20,821 nt of DNA. Origin: a virus. The position numbers and the translations under genes were made by a program. The notes under the pieces were generated by a model, which was not told the origin of the DNA, searched no databases, and worked only from the letters and a program-made list of their open reading frames with translations. This document shows, one piece after another, positions 6,366 to 20,772 of this stretch. The first letter of the stretch is position 1, and each line of letters opens with the position of its first letter. The DNA lies in IMG/VR virus record IMGVR_UViG_3300046535_000384, positions 1 through 20,821 of that record. One strand, 5' to 3'.

Positions 6366-6462
6366 CGTCGTCGACCGAGGCTTGAACAACGATCCAATCC
6401 GGCTGAACAGGTTCATCGGTGCACCAGCTTTCTTCGTCGTCAGTTGGAGTAGTCGAAGCCAT
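6358..6462 (-). CDS. 34-aa acidic microprotein starting inside thyX
   Basis: ATG 6462 lies 22 nt before the thyX stop and has GGAG at a 6-nt spacing, a convincing ribosome binding site. The product is very acidic (TDDEE near the N-terminus, SVDDDE at the C-terminus) with a WC and DW. Small acidic phage proteins often act as inhibitors or DNA mimics, but nothing here shows that directly. Confidence 0.5.
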   Translation of the reverse strand: MASTTPTDDEESWCTDEPVQPDWIVVQASVDDDE

Positions 6463-7168
6463 CGAGATCTCCAAACACGTCGGGGTACTCGATCAGAAGC
6501 TGACGCTTCACTTCCTTGGCGAACAGCTGCATCTCCGCGTCGGCATGCTTGGAGTCACGCTTCTTCAGAACATCTCGCCACGCTCGCAGGTTCCCGGTGA
6601 CGACGAACTTGGTCTCCGTGCCGGATGGGAGGAGATAGCGGGCAGCCTCTCGGGCCTGCTTGCGAGTGCCACCATTCCCCTGCGTTGCATTGACGCCAGC
6701 CTCATAGTAGGCCAGGTAGTCGCCAACCTCGGAGATCGAGGGGAAGTCCTCGTGGTACCTGCTCCGATGCGCAGGAGGGTTGACGAAGCGGGCATTGCTC
6801 ATGTCCACGAACCGCTGGGACAGTTCTGAGAACGACAGATGCCGATGCCGAATGAGTTCGTGAGACAGGTTGCGGCTGACTCCCTCTACGTAGAACGTCA
6901 CCGAGACGTGCTCAAGCACGCTCTCGTGCCCCTGAGAGATGATGTTGTGGATGTAGCCGGAGTTTGTGGCGGTGTCAGGATTAGGCAGGTGCCACGATTC
7001 GTAGCACAAGCGGCCAGCGAACTCGATCAAGTACTGACCGATCGAGGGTTCACCCCGCCAGTTCCACCAGTGCTTACGGAGTCGCTCCTCGAATGCACTA
7101 CCAGCGGCCTTGCCGGGAAGGTCCTGGCTGAAATGGAAGTCAGTCTTGCCGACGATGTAAACCTTCAC
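6440..7168 (-). CDS. thyX: Flavin-dependent thymidylate synthase ThyX
   Basis: ThyX makes dTMP from dUMP using methylene-tetrahydrofolate, with FAD/NADPH as reductant. The 242-residue product has the ThyX motif at residues 107-119 (RHRHLSFSELSQR), which binds FAD and dUMP, and an upstream GHESVLEHVSVTF segment (~80-92), also typical. Length matches the family (about 220-260). ATG 7168 overlaps the stop of the previous ORF (ATGA). Three genes away lies a dCMP deaminase that supplies dUMP, so the pair forms a thymidylate supply route. ThyX phages often replace host thymidylate synthesis during replication. Confidence is high from the motif. Confidence 0.95.
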   Translation of the reverse strand: MKVYIVGKTDFHFSQDLPGKAAGSAFEERLRKHWWNWRGEPSIGQYLIEFAGRLCYESWHLPNPDTATNSGYIHNIISQGHESVLEHVSVTFYVEGVSRNLSHELIRHRHLSFSELSQRFVDMSNARFVNPPAHRSRYHEDFPSISEVGDYLAYYEAGVNATQGNGGTRKQAREAARYLLPSGTETKFVVTGNLRAWRDVLKKRDSKHADAEMQLFAKEVKRQLLIEYPDVFGDLDGFDYSN

Positions 7169-7428: not shown

Positions 7429-7577
7429 GCGATCTCCACCCGTCCGTTGCGAACAGCAATGTCCTGCTTGATGGCTCGCTCAAAGCCGCAGCCATAGAGT
7501 TCGTCAATCGTGTAGATCCACACCTCAAGCTCCGGGTTCATTTCTTCGAGCACCGCGACCAGCTCACGAACGTTCAT
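7425..7577 (-). CDS. Hypothetical protein (50 aa)
   Basis: ATG 7577 sits 13 nt inside the dCMP deaminase gene; the stop overlaps the next GTG (GTGA). It starts NVRELVAVLEEMNPELEVWI, a helix followed by a strand, similar to the small phage proteins that begin with a helix and ELEV/…V strand. Unknown function. Confidence 0.65.
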   Translation of the reverse strand: MNVRELVAVLEEMNPELEVWIYTIDELYGCGFERAIKQDIAVRNGRVEIA

Positions 7578-7962
7578 CAACTACCACCCTCTCGATTCCT
7601 ACGTGCTTGATCAGTGTCGCACACTGGGTGCATGGCTCATCTGTGATGTAGATAGTACCGCCTCGGGCACGATCCGCTCCAGCGAGGAGGATCGCGTTGT
7701 GTTCAGCGTGGATTGCGTAGCATGGATATGCATTGTAGTCAGAGCCCGCTGCAACCTGACTGTAGCTGAGCTGCCCTCTGGGGCAGCCTCCATCCACACA
7801 ATGAGTAGCCCCGGAGATGACTCCATTGTATCCCTCGCCTACGATCTTACCTTCCCGGTTAACCAGCACAGCGCCAACCTGACGCCGGGAGCACGTGCTG
7901 AGGCTGGCCAGATCCCGGGCCGCCCGAAGGCGGACCCGGTCTAGCTTCTGCTGATCAGGCAA
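7564..7962 (-). CDS. dCMP deaminase (ComEB/cytidine deaminase family, 132 aa)
   Basis: This enzyme deaminates dCMP to dUMP, feeding ThyX. The zinc-ligand motif HAE is at residues 85-87 (HAEHNAILL) and the second motif PCTQC at 110-114; a CVDGGCPRG loop at ~55-63 matches the additional zinc-binding region of phage and bacterial dCMP deaminases. The start is TTG at 7962, overlapping the previous stop by 8 nt; no later ATG or GTG lies before the conserved region, so TTG is the best choice. Length 132 is typical (about 130-190). Confidence 0.9.
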   Translation of the reverse strand: MPDQQKLDRVRLRAARDLASLSTCSRRQVGAVLVNREGKIVGEGYNGVISGATHCVDGGCPRGQLSYSQVAAGSDYNAYPCYAIHAEHNAILLAGADRARGGTIYITDEPCTQCATLIKHVGIERVVVDERS

Positions 7963-8985: not shown

Positions 8986-9202
8986 GGTCAAGCTCCTTGA
9001 TGTAGTAGGTGTCACGGTAGATGCCATGCTCCGGAGGGGCGAGGAACTTGCGCTCACCGTAAGGCATGTTAACCATCAGGTCCCCTGCGATGTCGTGCAG
9101 GGCGTCGAGCGCTTCCGACTCGCTAGCGTACCAGTACGGAAGGACATTGGTCAGCGTCTCTTCGATGTGCTCGGGCTCGTACTCTTCAACGATAATCCAC
9201 AC
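8978..9202 (-). CDS. Hypothetical protein (74 aa)
   Basis: GTG 9202 overlaps the primase stop (TAGTG). Starts with a strand MWIIVEEYEPEHIEETL and has a helix (SEALDALHDIAGDLMV), a small alpha/beta layout. No Cys. Function unknown; it directly follows the primase and could be co-translated with it. Confidence 0.7.
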   Translation of the reverse strand: MWIIVEEYEPEHIEETLTNVLPYWYASESEALDALHDIAGDLMVNMPYGERKFLAPPEHGIYRDTYYIKELDRA

Positions 9203-9849
9203 TAGCGCTTCACCTTTCCGAGGAGATAGTCAGGGCCGTACTTCAGGTACGAGGAGTTCACGTCCTCGCCTGCTTTCATGGGGATCTCCACGACCGGCAT
9301 GTCAAGCCGGTCTCGGATTGTCTCGAACATCTTATGCCCCGACGAATCCCCATCGGCGAACACGTAGATCTTGGAGAAGTCTTCGAACACATTACCCCAG
9401 TGGGGCTTCCAGGAGGAAGCCCCGGGGATGGCGATAGCAGGAATACCGAGCTGGCGGAGGATGAGGGAGTCTAGCTCGCCCTCGGTTACGGCGATCCAAT
9501 CGGTAGCATCCTTGATGGCACGAACCCCATATAGATTGGTGTCCCAGCCTCGCATCTTCTGATACTTGCCGCCACACCTGGCATGCCCGTCGTCCTCGCA
9601 CTGCGGGTTGATGCACCGGAACGACATGTTCACGATCCCGAAGTCCGTGACGTACGGGATGGCGAGGCGAGTGGCGTACGCCTCGTGCAGGTCCGGAGGG
9701 TCAACTACTGCGCCGAGTCCTTCGGCCTGCGCGTGAGTCAGATCCACCCCTCGCTCTTCCAGGATTGGAGCGAGTACTTCGAGGTGTGCCTGATAGTGAG
9801 CCGCCGTCGCTTCCAGAAATCGCCTTCGCTCTTTCGATAGCGCTGCCAA
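9202..9849 (-). CDS. DNA primase, TOPRIM part (C-terminal half of split primase)
   Basis: This carries the TOPRIM core: EGELDSLILRQLGIPAIAIPG (glutamate motif) followed by VFADGDSSGHKM (DxD motif), which coordinates metal in DnaG-type primases. An extra Cys cluster (CINPQCEDDGHARC) lies upstream. The zinc-finger half is in a different frame (10096..9701), one base apart, so a +1 shift is needed to make one protein of about 297 residues. The frame stays open up to ATG 9972, but that part translates to Arg/Ser-rich nonsense overlapping the zinc-finger region. I give TTG 9849 as an independent start because GAAGAGGG lies 8 nt upstream (product 215 aa). Either a frameshift or two separate polypeptides is possible. 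Confidence 0.75.
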   Translation of the reverse strand: MAALSKERRRFLEATAAHYQAHLEVLAPILEERGVDLTHAQAEGLGAVVDPPDLHEAYATRLAIPYVTDFGIVNMSFRCINPQCEDDGHARCGGKYQKMRGWDTNLYGVRAIKDATDWIAVTEGELDSLILRQLGIPAIAIPGASSWKPHWGNVFEDFSKIYVFADGDSSGHKMFETIRDRLDMPVVEIPMKAGEDVNSSYLKYGPDYLLGKVKR

Positions 9850-10096
9850 GACTGATGCCCTCTTCCTTTGCAATGATCTGCACAGCGTTGCCCGTGGGGC
9901 AACCCTTGTTCGCTGAACAGTTGAACACGCCGATCTCGGTGTTGACCGAGGAGCTAGCCTGCCTGTCTCCATGGAACGGGCACTTGTACTTCTTCCAGCC
10001 TATTCCTTCTTCCGCCCATTCTCCGCCGTATTCCATGAGGATCGGGACGATCGGGAATCTGCCGTCGTTATTCGCCTCTTGCTTCTCGAAGCTCAT
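9701..10096 (-). CDS. DNA primase, CHC2 zinc-finger part (N-terminal half of split primase)
   Basis: The product starts MSFEKQEANNDGR and has a CHC2-like zinc finger with C39, H42, C60 and C66 (CPFHGD…FNCSANKGC), followed by a helix (GNAVQIIAKEEGISLGSAIE) as in bacterial and phage DnaG primases. After about residue 93 the reading turns to Arg/Ser-rich sequence, where the other frame becomes primase-like, so the true coding probably leaves this frame near 9815-9850. Start ATG 10096 overlaps the upstream gene by 29 nt. Binds template DNA for RNA-primer synthesis. Downstream half: TOPRIM, 9202..9849. Confidence 0.75.
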   Translation of the reverse strand: MSFEKQEANNDGRFPIVPILMEYGGEWAEEGIGWKKYKCPFHGDRQASSSVNTEIGVFNCSANKGCPTGNAVQIIAKEEGISLGSAIERAKAISGSDGGSLSGTPRSTRSNPGRARGGSDSRAGRRTRRSS

Positions 10097-10530: not shown

Positions 10531-10700
10531 TTCAACTCCTCCTCGATGTATGCGGTGAGCTTGTCTCGCAGCTCGATGGTGAACTGAAGGTCACCGTACA
10601 CTTCATCCACCTGGAGCATGAATTCCATCAGCTTGTAGCCGATCACGGTCGAGGCGAGGGTTTCCGCCAGGTCTGCGAGATTCACTTCGGACTCAATCAT
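10527..10700 (-). CDS. Acidic helical hypothetical protein (57 aa)
   Basis: ATG 10700 overlaps the stop of the endonuclease VII-like gene by eight bases; the stop overlaps the next GTG. Protein begins MIESEVNLADLAETLAS and is almost all helix with an acidic C-terminal EEEL. Missed by length cut-offs but supported by coupling at both ends. Function unknown. Confidence 0.6.
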   Translation of the reverse strand: MIESEVNLADLAETLASTVIGYKLMEFMLQVDEVYGDLQFTIELRDKLTAYIEEELK

Positions 10701-11136
10701 CACCATCAGGCTTTACCTGTCCAATCCATCGGTAAGCGGGAGGCTGTCGGAGATAGAAGGCTCCTCGGTCAAAGGCTTGATCGTCGTCTCGAAAGTGACC
10801 AAGTACTTTGTTGCAGGGTCCGCACAGTAGGCCACGAACGTATCCGGATTGATGATCGTGATCAACTGCAAGTCTCTTAGCGTGCCCGGAAGCTCGCTCA
10901 CAGATGAAACACGTACCACCCTGCCGCGCATATAGTTCATCGTACTGCTCCTTGGTGATGCCGTACGTCTTGAAGATGTGGTTACCGTGGGCCGCCTCTC
11001 GGGCGGCCTTCTTCTTGGCTCGATGGTGCGTTGCGCATCGAGGACCGGGGTACGGGGTGGGACGCTTGGAAGCAGCGGGGGGCGGAAAGCCCCCCCACTC
11101 CTCCTTGCAGTCCTTACAGTTACGACTTTTCGACAT
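10693..11136 (-). CDS. Endonuclease VII-like HNH nuclease (147 aa)
   Basis: Resolves branched DNA (Holliday junctions, mismatches) in the T4 gp49 family, inferred from sequence. The core is GITKEQYDELYARQGGTCFI…VDHDHQSGYVRGLLC: zinc ligands C76, C79, C105 and C108, and the catalytic DHDH at 92-95 with N109. A second Cys cluster at the N-terminus (C7, C10, C34) may add another metal site. Length 147 fits the family. Start ATG 11136 lies 17 nt inside the upstream small ORF. It neighbours primase and small helical genes, consistent with replication/recombination. Confidence 0.85.
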   Translation of the reverse strand: MSKSRNCKDCKEEWGGFPPPAASKRPTPYPGPRCATHHRAKKKAAREAAHGNHIFKTYGITKEQYDELYARQGGTCFICERASGHAKRLAVDHDHQSGYVRGLLCGPCNKVLGHFRDDDQAFDRGAFYLRQPPAYRWIGQVKPDGDD

Positions 11137-11952: not shown

Positions 11953-12551
11953 CAAAACTCCAAACCCCACTCATCGATTGGCTTTACCTGTTCGGTCCTG
12001 CATCGCTGGCATCCTCGCTGAACGGATACTCCAAGCACACTCGAATGCCCCGACGCCTCGCGAAGTCCGCACGTGCAGGGCGGCCCCACATCAGGACTCT
12101 CCGGAGCCCCCCGAATAGACCAGTCCGCAATCGACTGGGCCTCTTCAAGGACCTCTCCTATCTCTTCGAGCGGTGTTCCCCTGAAGAAGTCCCACGCGTC
12201 TCTGGCTGACTTCAGAAGAGGGACGATCATGAATCGTCCCCGCCCTGTCTTGGTTGATGTGTCCCAAGCCAGCTTTCCACCCTCTACACGCGAGGCTGTG
12301 TGCGCCTCGCTGCGAGCCTGCCACTGCTCCAACGTATCGAGCCTGCCTGCCGTGCTGTAAGGCCCTAGAGCGACCGTGTGGGCAGCTTCCTGGCCCGCGT
12401 ACTGGATCTGCCCGACTACGAGAATGCGCTTCTTCTTACCTCTCTCCTCATCAACCAGATCAAGGAGGAGTTCAGCCAGCTCGATGTCCGGCATGTCGTC
12501 GTTCTCCTCTATGGCCTTGGCCATCAATTTCTTGAGTGCGACCTCAGCCAC
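11952..12551 (-). CDS. Hypothetical protein with C-terminal Cys cluster (199 aa)
   Basis: GTG 12551 overlaps the stop of the upstream paralog gene (TAGTG). An N-terminal helical acidic region (LMAKAIEENDDMPDIELAELL) is followed by a mixed domain (RILVVGQIQYAG, VALGPYSTAG, RFMIVPLLKSARDAWDFFRG) and ends with a zinc-like cluster, CTCG…GCQRC. No family known to me. The VALGPYSTAGRLDTLEQWQ part is reminiscent of a short recurring phage segment, unassigned. Confidence 0.65.
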   Translation of the reverse strand: MAEVALKKLMAKAIEENDDMPDIELAELLLDLVDEERGKKKRILVVGQIQYAGQEAAHTVALGPYSTAGRLDTLEQWQARSEAHTASRVEGGKLAWDTSTKTGRGRFMIVPLLKSARDAWDFFRGTPLEEIGEVLEEAQSIADWSIRGAPESPDVGPPCTCGLREASGHSSVLGVSVQRGCQRCRTEQVKPIDEWGLEF

Positions 12552-12973
12552 TAGCCGCGCCGTCCCTCCGCGTACTCGTTGACCAGCTTGTACGCCTCCT
12601 CTTCGTCGAGGTAGAACAGAAGCGACTGGTTCTCGTTCAGGCCAAGAACCTTGGTGCCGACGGCTGTGAACGAGGAGGAGGAGTAGGAATCAAGCCCAAG
12701 CTCAAGACCCAGGCTATTCCTTACCAGATACAAAGGCTGGTTGACATCCAGCCCAAGACGTTCCGCTTCGAAATGAATCGCCCATCCGGCGACGCAGCGA
12801 GCGGTACTGCACTCCGAAGGGCTAGCCGTCTCCCACCCCGTAGCAGGATCGAAGTAGTCCCGATACCAGATCTCGGACTCCTCATAGTTCTGCTCCCAAT
12901 CCTCCATCGCGAAGCGAGTGGGCTCACGCTTGATCTGGTCGCGGATCTTCTTGAACAGCTCGGTGTTCACCAT
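12551..12973 (-). CDS. C-x-T-x-RC-AGWAIH family protein, copy A (140 aa)
   Basis: ATG 12973 overlaps the helicase stop (TGATG). After an N-terminal NTELFKKIRDQI helix and a DIW-like aromatic patch, it has CSTARCVAGWAIHFEAERLG (C55, C60, H67), then an AVGTKVLGLNENQSLLFYLD segment and a C-terminal helix. The gene at 18490..18960 shows the same order of motifs, so the two are divergent paralogs. Family function is not known to me; the Cys-Cys-His set suggests metal binding, which is inference. Confidence 0.75.
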   Translation of the reverse strand: MVNTELFKKIRDQIKREPTRFAMEDWEQNYEESEIWYRDYFDPATGWETASPSECSTARCVAGWAIHFEAERLGLDVNQPLYLVRNSLGLELGLDSYSSSSFTAVGTKVLGLNENQSLLFYLDEEEAYKLVNEYAEGRRG

Positions 12974-13987: not shown

Positions 13988-14013
13988 CACAGCTCCTTAT
14001 TTCAGTGCGTGCG

Positions 14014-14089
14014 TAGGCCGGGCAGGGCTCGAACCTGCAGGTAACCGATCCTTTCGGGAGCGACGCTTTGCCAATTAAGCTACCGGCCC
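14014..14089 (-). tRNA. Atypical tRNA, anticodon uncertain (best reading GAA, Phe)
   Basis: Folding by eye on the minus strand gives a 7-bp acceptor stem (GGGCCGG with CCGGCCT, first pair G-U), U8-A9, a 4-bp D stem (GCTT/AAGC) with AATTGGCA loop, and a perfect T arm (GCAGG, loop TTCGAGC, CCTGC), then discriminator A; CCA is not encoded. The anticodon arm is odd: stem CGCTC/GATCG contains one mismatch, loop CCGAAAG would read GAA but lacks U33, and three extra bases sit between the D and T stems. It lies between the helicase and a small TM gene in the leftward operon. It could be a decayed or reprogrammed tRNA. Confidence 0.6.
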
Positions 14090-15948: not shown

Positions 15949-16395
15949 CTAATTCCAGTTCAGCTTGATTGCGGATCGAACAGTCCAGCGACTCAGGCCA
16001 TAAGCCCTGCCAAGCCTACCGTAACCGTAACCCTTGTCGTGCAGAAACCGCAGCGCCTTCACTGCTTGTTCATTAAGGATCGCATTATGGCGACCCTCTC
16101 CACGCTTGTGGCCTCCGCGCTCTGTCGCCTCACGCATATTCTCGGCATGGGACCCCTCGCGCAGATGATCGGGATTCACGCAAGCTCTGTTGTCGCACGA
16201 GTGAAGCAACATCGATACGGGTTCACGCCCGTTGGCGATAGTGAAAGTGAATCGATGTGCCCGGTACCATTTCTGCCTGTAGGTGAGGGCACCGTACCCC
16301 GACTTGAGCTTAGCGCCACGCCAGATCAGGCACTCACCAGCCCGGTCAACTCGATCGGCGAGGTATTCATTCAGGTCAGTAGGGAAGTCCGTCAC
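15949..16395 (-). CDS. HNH homing endonuclease (148 aa)
   Basis: Start GTG 16395 sits inside the end of the RecB-like gene; the frame continues to 16443, but that part shadows RecB. Zinc-finger/HNH motifs: ECLIWRGAKLKSGYG, WYRAHRFTFTIANGREP, LLHSCDNRACVNPDHLREGS and the Asn after (AENMREA). A C-terminal helix-turn-helix-like part (AVKALRFLHDKGYG, LSRWTVRSAIKL) probably binds DNA. Fits the HNH_3-type free-standing homing endonucleases common in phages. Overlaps RecB by 20 nt, so it is embedded in the operon. Confidence 0.85.
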   Translation of the reverse strand: MTDFPTDLNEYLADRVDRAGECLIWRGAKLKSGYGALTYRQKWYRAHRFTFTIANGREPVSMLLHSCDNRACVNPDHLREGSHAENMREATERGGHKRGEGRHNAILNEQAVKALRFLHDKGYGYGRLGRAYGLSRWTVRSAIKLNWN

Positions 16396-17206
16396 GATCT
16401 GCCTTGTCGTAGAAGCGGGCCCTCTTTGTTGGTCCAGAAGCAAGCGTGCAATTCGGACGCTGGAAGCACATGTTGCAGTTGTACTTAGCGTACCTAGTCT
16501 GGTACAGCTTCGCCTGCATCTTCTCGTACGTCGCCTGATACTTGGCTCCCACCTCGGCAGGGTCTACGTGACTCAGGTCAATAGGCCTCGCCTTGCTGGC
16601 TTCAGGGTGGAGCATAGCCCACAGGCCGGTGAAGTGGGAAGCCCCAAGTACACGCTCTCCAGGATGCGGAGCTACAAGCAGGGCCTTGTACGTCTCAAGC
16701 TGGAAGTTATCCTTCGGCTTGGCCTTGCCGGTCTTCCAGTCAAGGATCACCGGACCATGCTTCTTGTGCTCACCAAGGATATCGATATACGCCTTGATGG
16801 GCACAGAAAGCCCTGGGAGCCTGCCTGAGGCGTCAAACTCTACCTCCCAGACATCTACCTCATCCAGGAATTCGAGAGCCTTGGAGAAGCACTCACGCAC
16901 GTGCCTGAGGGCACGGGCTTCGGTCAGCTTGCCATCAGACGCAGTCGAAGCCAGCCAATTCTTGTGGTCGGGATCAACCTGCATCTGCTTCTCAATCAGA
17001 GGATAGAAATAATCCTCGGCGGAGATGGAGTCACGTCCGGGGAAAGGCTTCTTAGGGTCAAGCCAGTCCTCAACCATCGAGTGAACCGCAGTACCGATAG
17101 GCAGATACCATGTCTGGCGCTGCTCGGCGCCAGCAATCTTTCCCAGATACCAACTGCGCGCGCAACGCTGATAAGTCGAGTACTGGGAGAATGAGATGTG
17201 ATCCAT
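16376..17206 (-). CDS. Cas4/RecB-like PD-(D/E)XK exonuclease with Fe-S cysteines (276 aa)
   Basis: ATG 17206 overlaps the HNH stop (TGATG); the longer frame shadows the HNH end. Motifs: FSQYSTYQRC (C15), GTAVH (38-42, H42), the D of YIDIL (D142), LDWKTG (D156, K158) and a Q-x-x-x-Y helix (FQLETY). Three Cys near the C-terminus, C244, C247 and C253, join C15 as a probable 4Fe-4S ligand set, as in Cas4 and AddB. Degrades or resects DNA ends for recombination or replication. No CRISPR array or cas1/cas2 is nearby, so it is a stand-alone phage nuclease, not an adaptation module. Confidence 0.85.
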   Translation of the reverse strand: MDHISFSQYSTYQRCARSWYLGKIAGAEQRQTWYLPIGTAVHSMVEDWLDPKKPFPGRDSISAEDYFYPLIEKQMQVDPDHKNWLASTASDGKLTEARALRHVRECFSKALEFLDEVDVWEVEFDASGRLPGLSVPIKAYIDILGEHKKHGPVILDWKTGKAKPKDNFQLETYKALLVAPHPGERVLGASHFTGLWAMLHPEASKARPIDLSHVDPAEVGAKYQATYEKMQAKLYQTRYAKYNCNMCFQRPNCTLASGPTKRARFYDKADRDGLPY

Positions 17207-17628
17207 CAGATTCGCGCCTCTCGCTGACGTCGAACCTTTTCCCGATGACACACCTTGCACCTTCGCCCACGGTCTTTGACTAGATTATCCGGCGTGTACT
17301 CGTGTCCTTGCGGACAATGCGTCTTCCTTGCGTTGATCGCGGTTGGCGCAGTTGATCGCAGGACGTTCACCCGCATCTCAACAACTTCAAGATGGTCGGG
17401 GTTTACGCAAAGAGTATTCTTGCAAAGGTGGTCCAGGGTCAAGCCGTCGGGTATGGCGCCAACCAGCATTTCGTAACTAGCTCGATGGGCAAAGAGGGGG
17501 GACTTTCGATCCTTGTGCTTCACCTGCCCATAGCCGTTACCCTTAGTTGACGCAGTCCATTCCCAGCAAACGCCAGAGGCGTCTACCTTAGACCAGAACC
17601 TATCGCGGAAAGCTTCGTTATATTCCAT
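17206..17628 (-). CDS. HNH endonuclease with zinc tail (140 aa)
   Basis: ATG 17628 (TTG 17634 also possible) begins EYNEAFRDRFWSKVDASGVC. Motifs: CWEWTASTKGNGYGQ, AHRASYEMLVGAIPDGLTLD, HLCKNTLCVNPDHLEVVE, then a C-terminal module THCPQGHEYTPDNL…RRCKVCHREK. That tail resembles the tandem zinc modules of the adjacent WhiB-like protein. Homing-type HNH nuclease with its own leaderless promoter just upstream. Interrupts the array between WhiB-like and RecB-like genes. Confidence 0.85.
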   Translation of the reverse strand: MEYNEAFRDRFWSKVDASGVCWEWTASTKGNGYGQVKHKDRKSPLFAHRASYEMLVGAIPDGLTLDHLCKNTLCVNPDHLEVVEMRVNVLRSTAPTAINARKTHCPQGHEYTPDNLVKDRGRRCKVCHREKVRRQREARI

Positions 17629-17634
17629 GTCCAA

Positions 17635-17672: not shown

Positions 17673-18296
17673 TCATGACTCCATGATAGCAGCCTTGGCC
17701 TTCTCGCGAAGCTTGTTGCGATTCACCCGATTACACTCACCGCAATACCTCAATCCCTGCTTACCGCTTCGAGCCTTCCGGGCTCGAAACTTATCGACAT
17801 GCCCCCTAGAGCATGTGCCAGGAAGATACGTGATCTTCTCTTTTGGATTGACTACAGGCCGCTCGCGCTCCTGCCTGCACTTCATGCACCGGTATCCGTC
17901 GTTAGAACGCTTACGGTAATAGCCGACATGCCCGCGACTGCATTCCTTGTTGGCTATATCCACGTTCGAATTGTTGGTACGGGGTCGACCTCTTCCTCTG
18001 AACTTGAACGCAGAAGGAAGCACTCCACCGCGAACAGTCCATGTGGAATCCTCGATCGATGCAGTCTCTTTGCACTCCATCTTGACCGGGCAGCTCTCGC
18101 AAAGAACAAGAGCCGCAGCGAACTTACTCTTGTTGTGGGATCGAATAGCCCGATCCCTTTCTTCGACCGACTTGATGTCTCGCCTGAAATTGGATTCACG
18201 TTCAGTCAAGTCGAACAGCTCTGGCTTGCCCTTGCAGGGAGTTTCCCCCTTACGTCCCTCCACTTTACCTCCGCCCTCTTTAGGAGACCGACCCAT
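17673..18296 (-). CDS. WhiB7-like regulator fused to two zinc modules (207 aa)
   Basis: Probable transcription regulator. The N-terminal domain has the WhiB cysteine set C21, C66, C69, C75 (CKGKPELFD … CESCPVKMEC) that binds a 4Fe-4S cluster in WhiB proteins, then W86-T-V-R-GG (like the WhiB GVWGG turn) and an AT-hook RGRGRPR at 101-106, as in WhiB7. The C-terminal half adds two CSRGH-x(13-18)-C-x2-C modules (C119/H123/C137/C140 and C162/H166/C185/C188) not normal in WhiB proteins. ATG 18296 was chosen with GGAG upstream; TTG 18329 is possible. A strong promoter and 155-nt leader precede it. Confidence 0.8.
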   Translation of the reverse strand: MGRSPKEGGGKVEGRKGETPCKGKPELFDLTERESNFRRDIKSVEERDRAIRSHNKSKFAAALVLCESCPVKMECKETASIEDSTWTVRGGVLPSAFKFRGRGRPRTNNSNVDIANKECSRGHVGYYRKRSNDGYRCMKCRQERERPVVNPKEKITYLPGTCSRGHVDKFRARKARSGKQGLRYCGECNRVNRNKLREKAKAAIMES

Positions 18297-18329
18297 AGGG
18301 AGGGCTCCGTTAGTAATGGATAGAACCAA

Positions 18330-18349
18330 GGCGCCCTTGATGGGGCGCC
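18330..18349 (-). promoter_or_regulatory. Leader hairpin before WhiB-like gene (possible attenuator)
   Basis: Stem GGCGCCC/GGGCGCC with 6-nt loop, followed on the minus strand by TTGGTTCT, a weak T-rich tract, about 34 nt before the ATG. A similar stem occurs at 14094-14111. Confidence 0.4.
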
Positions 18350-18381
18350 CTAGCTCACAGACATCAGACTACTGCTTAAGT

Positions 18382-18411
18382 CTACCTAATCTGTAATTTC
18401 TGAGACTTCAC
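18382..18411 (-). promoter_or_regulatory. Possible 9-codon uORF in the WhiB-like leader
   Basis: GTG 18411 with AGGGGGAA close upstream reads MKSQKLQIR then TAG. It starts just after the hairpin 18412-18433 and before 18330-18349, a layout that could couple translation to attenuation. No independent proof. Confidence 0.3.
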
Positions 18412-18433
18412 GTTCCCCCTTGAGGGGGGGAAC
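18412..18433 (-). promoter_or_regulatory. Leader hairpin GTTCCCCC/GGGGGAAC
   Basis: An 8-bp perfect stem with 6-nt loop about 20 nt after the predicted transcription start. No T-run follows, so it is a structured leader element rather than a clear terminator. It holds the possible SD of the uORF. Confidence 0.4.
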
Positions 18434-18458
18434 TGATACTCAACTACTTACAAGATTA

Positions 18459-18486
18459 AGTATACGGGACCTGGAAATCCTGTCAA
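18459..18486 (-). promoter_or_regulatory. Strong sigma-70-type promoter for the WhiB-like gene
   Basis: TTGACA (18486-18481), 16-bp spacer, TATACT (18464-18459) on the minus strand, a near-consensus promoter; predicted start near 18452. This gives a leader of about 155 nt carrying two hairpins and a possible uORF. It is the clearest promoter in the leftward array. Confidence 0.7.
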
Positions 18487-18489
18487 GAC

Positions 18490-18960
18490 CTAGCTCGTGT
18501 GACCTGCGTCACACCCTTCGACTTCGCAAGTCAGAGCATCCTGACCGCTGGCGTACCTGGCGACCCGGTCGAGCGCACTCCTGTCATCCATGTCGAAGAA
18601 GAGGCGCTGGCCATCGGACAGAGGGATGCCGAGGATGTGAGAGGCGATGACCTCGGCATCCATCCTGTCGGTGCCCCACATCCCATAGGGATCGCCTGCG
18701 TAGTGCTCCTCGATCAATCGATGGGTGTCGTGCTGTTCGGCGTACTCCTTCGAGATCACCTCGATAGGGGCGTTGGTGATGCCGTTGTCCGAACCCCACA
18801 GATGGATTGCCCAGCCCGCGATACAGCGGGTTGTGCCGCAGTGGGGTTCGGACAGCCAGACATCAGCCTCGGCCATCTCGAAGAACTTCTGGCTGTGCTG
18901 CTCGGGGTTGATCCTGATGATCTGCTCGATGCGCTGGAACATCTCGGTATTGATCGGCAT
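18490..18960 (-). CDS. C-x-T-x-RC-AGWAIH family protein, copy B (156 aa)
   Basis: ATG 18960 has GGAGGAG 7 nt upstream. Motif order is the same as in 12551..12973: INTEMFQRIEQI, an aromatic VWLSEP patch, CGTTRCIAGWAIHLWGSDNG (C41, C46, H53), a late ILGIPLSDGQRLFFDMDD segment, then a helix. It carries an extra ~20-residue insertion (EQHDTHRLIEEHYAGDPYG). The C-terminus adds a CEVEGCDAGH cluster. The two copies are divergent, with strong match only around the motif. Function unknown; metal binding inferred. Confidence 0.75.
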   Translation of the reverse strand: MPINTEMFQRIEQIIRINPEQHSQKFFEMAEADVWLSEPHCGTTRCIAGWAIHLWGSDNGITNAPIEVISKEYAEQHDTHRLIEEHYAGDPYGMWGTDRMDAEVIASHILGIPLSDGQRLFFDMDDRSALDRVARYASGQDALTCEVEGCDAGHTS

Positions 18961-20010: not shown

Positions 20011-20772
20011 ATGCGAACAACACTGATTCTTCCGGACATCCAGTATCCGTATCATGATGCACTGATGCTTAAGAAGCTCATCAGTGTTGCATCCGACATT
20101 CAGCCGGACTCGATCCTTCAGATCGGGGACGGTATCGACTTCCCCCAAGTCTCCCAGTGGAACAAGGGCAGGGCTGGAGAATTCGCCAACGATCTCCAGG
20201 ATCACATCACAGGGTTTCGTGGCAACGTGCTAGAACCCCTGCGTGACGCCTGTCCTGACGCTAGTTTCACGTGGCTTGAGGGTAATCACGATCTGCGTAT
20301 CAAAGATTTCGTCTCGAAGTACGCCGCGCCACTTACCACACTCGAAGCACTCTCCTTCGACAACCTCTTCTCGCTCGAAGCCCTCAAGGTCGAATACGTC
20401 AAGGGCCCCATCCGGATCGCAACCAATACTTACGCAATACATGGTCACGAGTCGGGCGGATACGCTGCCACTGCTTCCGCCTGGGATCTCAAGTACGTCA
20501 AGCGGTACGGGAGCGACAAATCTTTCGTTTTCGGTCACACCCACCAGCCTTTCATCATTCACCGAGCCTTCGGATACGAGGGCAAGGTCAGCCCACGATT
20601 CACTATGAACGTGGGAAGCATTATGGACCCAGTACAGGCGTCATACGTCAAGGACGGAGCCGTGTCATGGGTGATGAGTTTTTCTGTGCTCAGGGATGAC
20701 GGTAAGCGGGTCTGGCCGGAACTCATCACAGCCACAGACCGAAAGTTCTACGTCAACGGAAAGCGGTACTAA
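20011..20772 (+). CDS. Calcineurin-like metallophosphoesterase (253 aa)
   Basis: A metal-dependent phosphatase or nuclease of the metallophosphoesterase superfamily. Motifs: PDIQYPYHD (D9, Q11 in place of the usual His, H15), IGDGID (D40), EGNHD (N92, H93), AIHGHESGG (~145) and VFGHTHQPF (~177). Phage members of this type (DTQ/DIQ variant) are common and may cut phosphodiesters in DNA or nucleotides; exact substrate is unknown. ATG at 20011 is leaderless. Stop overlaps the next ATG (TAATG). Confidence 0.85.
   Translation: MRTTLILPDIQYPYHDALMLKKLISVASDIQPDSILQIGDGIDFPQVSQWNKGRAGEFANDLQDHITGFRGNVLEPLRDACPDASFTWLEGNHDLRIKDFVSKYAAPLTTLEALSFDNLFSLEALKVEYVKGPIRIATNTYAIHGHESGGYAATASAWDLKYVKRYGSDKSFVFGHTHQPFIIHRAFGYEGKVSPRFTMNVGSIMDPVQASYVKDGAVSWVMSFSVLRDDGKRVWPELITATDRKFYVNGKRY

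Follow-up and report, generated by a model that had tools for sequence, protein, structure and literature searches.

A WhiB-like protein with a zinc-finger-like tail, encoded ahead of a Cas4-like nuclease and behind a putative CRP site in an actinophage genome

The DNA analysed here (the window; 20,821 nucleotides, positions 1 to 20,821 of IMG/VR virus record IMGVR_UViG_3300046535_000384) carries on its minus strand a gene whose product joins a WhiB-like core to an AT-hook-like motif and to two modules with a zinc-finger-like arrangement of cysteine and histidine, raising the question of what kind of protein this is, how it came by its tail, and what it might do for the phage. The initial annotation had taken it for a WhiB7-like protein with an exceptional tail, possibly shuffled in from the HNH endonuclease encoded next to it.

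The WhiB-like core and its tail

The gene and the parts of its product lie as follows.

17673..18296, minus (18296->17673): WhiB-like protein gene, 207 aa from ATG 18296 (open reading frame, Pfam, family alignment)
18006..18236, minus: WhiB core with C21, C66-X2-C69-X5-C75 and the WTVRGG turn (alignment of relatives, Pfam)
17979..17999, minus: AT-hook-like motif RGRGRPR, residues 100-106 (sequence)
17877..17942, minus: tail module 1, C-x3-H...C-x2-C, residues 119-140, CSRGH..CMKC (C119, G122, H123, C137 and C140 invariant)
17733..17813, minus: tail module 2, C-x3-H...C-x2-C, residues 162-188, CSRGH..CGEC (sequence; relatives with two modules)

The open reading frame is single and unbroken, with 207 codons and a stop, and the cysteines of its core are spaced C-X44-C-X2-C-X5-C, bearing out the WhiB order C-Xn-C-X2-C-X5-C that had been read from the letters; all four (C21, C66, C69 and C75) are invariant in an alignment of 27 sequences, and across 15 relatives they are invariant together with C119, G122, H123, C137 and C140. 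The profile search proposed at the outset likewise returned the WhiB family, PF02467 being matched at residues 56-92 with an E-value of 6.3e-5 and 23.9 bits against a curated cut-off of 23.6, a score only just above the threshold, which counts against reading the protein as a regulator. The WhiB-like PHROG families match with E-values of 1e-4 to 2e-4, and the unnamed family phrog_1333 does so at 3e-9 over residues 45-147, so that the first tail module is included in the match. The WTVRGG turn is present at residues 86-91, as had been claimed, but it is not the canonical one, which reads G(V/I)WGG (PMC6282962) and in which the position of the Trp is here taken by Arg.

The AT-hook-like motif was also correctly recognized, and the phmmer alignment with M. 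tuberculosis WhiB7, a protein of solved structure, extends into the RPRGRPR of that protein, albeit weakly (E 0.025); a GRP or RGR motif is found in 24 of 51 distinct relatives. Both CSRGH...CxxC modules are in the same frame as the core, as described. Structure was predicted for the whole protein and for the tail separately, with poor confidence (pLDDT 59.7 and 58.7), so that the models lend support to neither a WhiB nor a treble-clef fold; in the low-confidence prediction, module 1 forms a hairpin followed by a helix. When searched alone, the tail matched no PHROG family, no Pfam family above cut-off and nothing in NCBIfam. It does match, marginally (E 0.07), a protein of a Pectobacterium phage in which two such modules precede an HNH domain, which suggests, at that marginal level, that the module may be common to phage DNA enzymes widely.

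The start codon is uncertain. An alternative, GTG 18263 (giving 196 aa), is preceded by GGCGGAGGTAAA, which is conserved in the related locus L030, and ATG 18296 is conserved neither there nor in a further related locus, L031; the true start may thus be the GTG.

Relatives of the protein and its gene neighbourhood

In a tblastn search against 50,697 phage records, the window protein matched 29 records of Streptomyces phages, at 31-34% identity across residues 21-144. The records that were opened belong nearly all to the subfamily Beephvirinae, and their orthologs, 152-187 aa long, carry the annotation WhiB family transcription factor, or else hypothetical; every one examined has the WhiB core, usually a GRP motif, and then one CxRGH...GRCxxC module. 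In the alignment A2, all 15 members match both phrog_1333 and PF02467 (the latter at E <= 1). Among viral contigs, a scan with the window WhiB as a single protein found no relative and a profile scan found 16, the rest being reached by scans with the window's Cas4-like protein and metallophosphoesterase; an HMM search of all open reading frames of the fetched loci gave 85 matches, representing 58 distinct proteins. A scan of genome contigs found no encoded relative, and so gave no sign of a bacterial origin, and among open-access papers none was found that describes a WhiB protein combined with zinc modules.

Among 51 distinct alignable cores, the tail has no module in 10, one in 29 and two in 12, so that, contrary to the initial impression, it is not exceptional among these WhiB proteins: 41 of the 51 have at least one. 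The possibility that the fusion was a separate gene joined on by a sequencing error does not hold up either, and was rejected because many phages independently carry the fusion in one frame and with the same arrangement of parts. Two modules are found at L018, L030, L031, L080, L068, L081, L037, L039, L083, L085 and L095. In a tree of the cores, the window protein groups with that of L030 (support 96/91), so that its two-module state is common to its nearest relative; about eight changes of this state are needed on the tree, which is built from few columns and has many unresolved forks, suggesting that copies of the module were repeatedly gained or lost. From the several relatives without any module, it also appears that some phages can do without the tail. 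The WhiB relatives of L041, L059 and L075 stop right behind the core.

In 57 of 57 relatives, Arg occupies the position that Trp has in G(V/I)WGG, within the pattern x-(T/S)-x-R-(G/A/Q)-G, and this substitution, together with the WhiB-Cas4 pair, is the hallmark of the clade; Mycobacterium phage Nanosmite gp77, which is outside the clade, retains YGVWGG and lacks the tail module. Judged from these comparisons, the window protein is a divergent Wbl subfamily member rather than a canonical one, with the position of the turn and its glycine kept. Fe-S ligation looks intact in the clade, and the contact with sigma may differ, because the Trp of the WhiB-specific turn is Arg throughout.

The neighbouring genes considered are the following.

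17206..17634, minus: HNH endonuclease between WhiB and Cas4 (Pfam HNH_3, 4.5e-11)
16376..17212, minus: Cas4-like PD-(D/E)XK nuclease, the conserved downstream partner (Pfam PDDEXK_1, 6.7e-20)
20011..20772, plus: metallophosphoesterase, the syntenic anchor (70-72% identical to Beephvirinae phages)

The Cas4-like nuclease is about 50% identical to its Beephvirinae counterparts, annotated as Cas4 exonuclease in Streptomyces phages, and the gene order is kept, with the metallophosphoesterase divergent and upstream, and WhiB followed by Cas4. From the shared genes and their order, the window is taken to be part of a Beephvirinae-like actinophage genome. In L030, L031 and almost all other loci, WhiB lies directly 5' of the Cas4-like gene, often overlapping it, with no HNH gene between; L014 is the only other relative with such an insertion.

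Set beside known systems, the protein is closest to the Beephvirinae WhiB proteins of phrog_1333 (FlowerPower gp63, JPandJE gp67, Stella gp68 and Dennebes gp71), which have the same cysteines, an xTxRxG turn, usually the GRP motif and the C-x3-H...C-x2-C module, and which are encoded, as in the window, in the order metallophosphoesterase, small gene, WhiB, Cas4. They differ in that they are only 32-36% identical to it and have one module (about 152-187 aa) where the window protein has two, and in that the HNH gene is inserted before Cas4 in the window. WhiB7/WblC (class V Wbl) also has a WhiB core followed by an AT-hook (RGRPR), but it retains G(V/I)WGG, is shorter, at about 92 aa, and lacks zinc-like modules; the window protein thus shares the C-terminal AT-hook of that class, yet its closer relatives are the phage proteins of phrog_1333. 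By its similarity and gene order, the window protein is a member of an actinophage WhiB clade comprising Streptomyces Beephvirinae and many metagenomic phages, and its layout is, as far as these relatives indicate, the normal one for a poorly described clade that is more widespread than first thought and looks like an undescribed subfamily.

Further features were observed elsewhere in the window. It contains three homing-type endonucleases within 21 kb, one of endonuclease VII and two of HNH_3 type (10693-11136, 15949-16443 and 17206-17634). A primase-like gene is apparently split (9202-9972 and 9701-10096), with its CHC2 zinc finger and Toprim parts in different frames, owing either to a frameshift in the record or to a programmed frameshift. 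A ThyX-type thymidylate synthase and a dCMP deaminase are encoded close together (6440-7168 and 7564-7962), and a tRNA-Phe (gaa) lies at 14013-14089 on the minus strand. Two minus-strand open reading frames, 18490-18960 and 12551-12973, are paralogous (25% identity, E 3e-14) and share a TxRC(I/V)AGWAIH motif, with no Pfam family matched.

Promoter, leader and palindrome upstream of the gene

Upstream of the WhiB gene, the following elements were located.

18297..18455, minus: structured 5' leader of the WhiB gene (folding)
18326..18353, minus: hairpin CTAGGGCGCCCCATCAAGGGCGCCTTGG in the conserved leader block (strongly conserved in L030 and L031)
18459..18486, minus: predicted sigma-70-like promoter TTGACA-16-TATACT (unique in the window, expected 0.00)
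18498..18513: CRP-type palindrome TGTGACGCAGGTCACA, TGTGAN6TCACA, upstream of the WhiB promoter

The stretch 18285-18455 folds with a minimum free energy of -72.9 kcal/mol (z -5.33). A 26-base pattern taken from the leader block was found, within the viral collection, solely in the L030 and L031 contigs, and a 15-mer scan with the hairpin gave 11 matches, one of which was recognized as a relative of the window locus, while the rest may be due to chance. The leader block may act in attenuation, or may mark where a short RNA ends.

The palindrome, which lies about a dozen bases upstream of the predicted promoter, is the sole TGTGAN6TCACA of the window (expected 0.01). This sequence is the CRP motif. 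Its 16 bases are invariant in the window, L030 and L031 amid DNA that has diverged; in the window they fall within the upstream open reading frame and encode its final residues, and in L030 they lie 3' of a stop codon, so that their conservation is not for coding reasons. The same association with WhiB is seen across the 51 distinct loci, where the 700 nt preceding the WhiB CxxC hold 25 sites in 35.7 kb, the other 422 kb only 5, all of them 758-1076 nt upstream of WhiB, and shuffled upstream DNA is expected to hold 0. Counted by locus, 26 of the 51 have a site within 1.2 kb of WhiB, and it is missing at WhiB in the other 25. Over the fetched loci, some of which overlap, there are 35 sites with a spacer of 6 against a mean of 0.5 with permuted half-sites, and 0 to 3 with other spacers. 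Across 22 related genomes, most of them close to 45 kb, the pattern occurs 28 times and its reversed form once. Some members of the clade also carry CRP-type sites elsewhere, for example 340 bp before the terminase gene in Manuel and between two genes in JXY1. CRP-type palindromes paired 55 bp apart were noticed in the genomes reached via L041, L073, L075 and L076, and in some of these genomes the pairs are far from WhiB.

The CRP motif of M. tuberculosis is similar to TGTGAN6TCACA (PMC4117774), and the window palindrome also conforms to GTG(N)6GNCAC, the sequence preferred by Crp of S. coelicolor (PMC10033298). The arrangement recalls the whiB1 promoter of M. tuberculosis, where a TGTGAN6TCACA-type site lies about 55 bp upstream of the whiB start, the CRP site being centred at -57.5 (PMC4117774); relative to the inferred start, the centre of the palindrome is at about -53 in the window and about -54 in L037. 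The difference is that the window palindrome belongs to a phage operon, in which CRP binding is putative. No CRP-type HTH or DNA-binding domain was found in the 22 related phage genomes, which points to control by the host's cAMP-CRP; the simplest reader of the palindrome would be host CRP or GlxR. Among open-access papers, none was found on CRP sites in actinophages.

Competing readings and meaning for actinophages

Bacterial WhiB proteins dock on region 4 of sigma. The reading that we consider probable is that the window protein is an actinophage WhiB-like transcription regulator that would work in the same way, bound to sigma and steering it to promoters by means of its zinc-finger-like tail, from behind a putative CRP site. 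The four-cysteine core would hold a [4Fe-4S] cluster and dock on region 4 of the host's principal sigma factor, and the hook and the presumably zinc-binding modules would contact DNA and choose the promoters, much as WhiB7 steers SigA via its AT-hook (PMC3905903). The WhiB gene, ahead of that of the Cas4-like nuclease, is predicted to be driven by a strong promoter of sigma-70 type whose transcript begins with a structured leader, and the palindrome upstream fits host cAMP receptor protein (CRP/GlxR), which may bind there. Against this reading stand, besides the narrow Pfam score, the Arg of the turn, the poor structure models, the relatives without a module, the 25 loci without a palindrome at WhiB and the phages in which such sites lie elsewhere.

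It is highly improbable that an HNH endonuclease, whether the neighbour or one like it, was the recent source of the tail and that the tail lends the protein a nuclease-like targeting of DNA. The arrangement C-x3-H...C-x2-C does occur at the end of many actinophage HNH endonucleases (the C-terminal module of the HNH_3 enzymes, phrog_826 type, has the same C-x2-GH...C-x2-C with a basic helix behind it), 169 phage records match the tail of the neighbouring HNH protein, and the marginal Pectobacterium phage match points the same way; the look-alike noticed in the C-terminus of the neighbour is, to that extent, real. The specific likeness is not, as in a shuffle test with Cys and His fixed module 2 scored z 2.4 against module 1 and z -0.5 against the HNH tail, which is no closer than shuffled sequence, and the WhiB tail lacks the HNH catalytic motif. 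Moreover, most WhiB relatives, the nearest ones included, have the module with no HNH gene nearby. The neighbouring gene was accordingly rejected as the source of the tail; the HNH gene is most readily explained as a mobile insertion, and the tail as a long-standing component of the WhiB family.

The other alternatives concern function. It is unlikely that the protein is mainly a partner of Cas4 when phage DNA is replicated or recombined, binding DNA through Fe-S and zinc parts and loading or regulating the nuclease instead of acting on promoters. In favour of such a role, wherever both genes were found (82 locus records, a redundant count) WhiB lies 5' of Cas4 on one strand, often with an overlap of a few bases, and the pairing persists although identity between the WhiB proteins has fallen to 25-40%; the region also encodes a DnaB-like helicase and a primase, and the invariant Trp-to-Arg change separates the clade from sigma-binding WhiB proteins. 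Against it, operon neighbours are not required to interact, the WhiB relatives of the protein are transcription regulators, and WhiB7 is known to bind promoters with an AT-hook. A dominant-negative protein that blocks host WhiB has a precedent in phage TM4, whose WhiB is reported to act in this manner against host whiB2, with superinfection exclusion (summarised in PMC8612146), and with its changed turn the protein could engage sigma or promoters without productive effect; the clade is, however, separate from the Mycobacterium phage WhiB proteins, as exemplified by Nanosmite, and we consider such a role quite improbable. As to the palindrome, the proposal that its reader is a phage protein and not host CRP, or that it works as a hairpin in RNA, is somewhat unlikely: most copies do form perfect 6-bp stems (TGTGAC...GTCACA), and phage-encoded operators are frequent, but copies such as TGTGATCTAGGTCACA and TGTGACCTACATCACA keep TGTGAN6TCACA while losing the longer stem, and the strict preference for a spacer of 6 also speaks against it, as does the search of 22 related genomes in which no CRP-type HTH was found.

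A wider reading, on the whole clade, is advanced tentatively, with the balance slightly against it: a divergent WhiB regulator with an Arg turn and zinc-like, DNA-reading modules in variable number would come first in a conserved WhiB-Cas4 unit, and many of these units would be gated by the host's cAMP receptor, so that the phage would sense the nutrient state of the host through the CRP-to-WhiB wiring by which the host controls its whiB1.

WhiB proteins are the most abundant regulators in actinophages, and according to PMC8612146 that of TM4 had been the only one studied for its function in infection. A clade with a variable-module tail and without the Trp turn would allow the parts of WhiB needed for sigma contact to be told apart from those needed for promoter choice. 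For phage gene expression gated by cAMP, E. coli phage T1 offers a precedent (PMC6737242), and if host CRP controls the operon described here, it would be a clear actinobacterial case.
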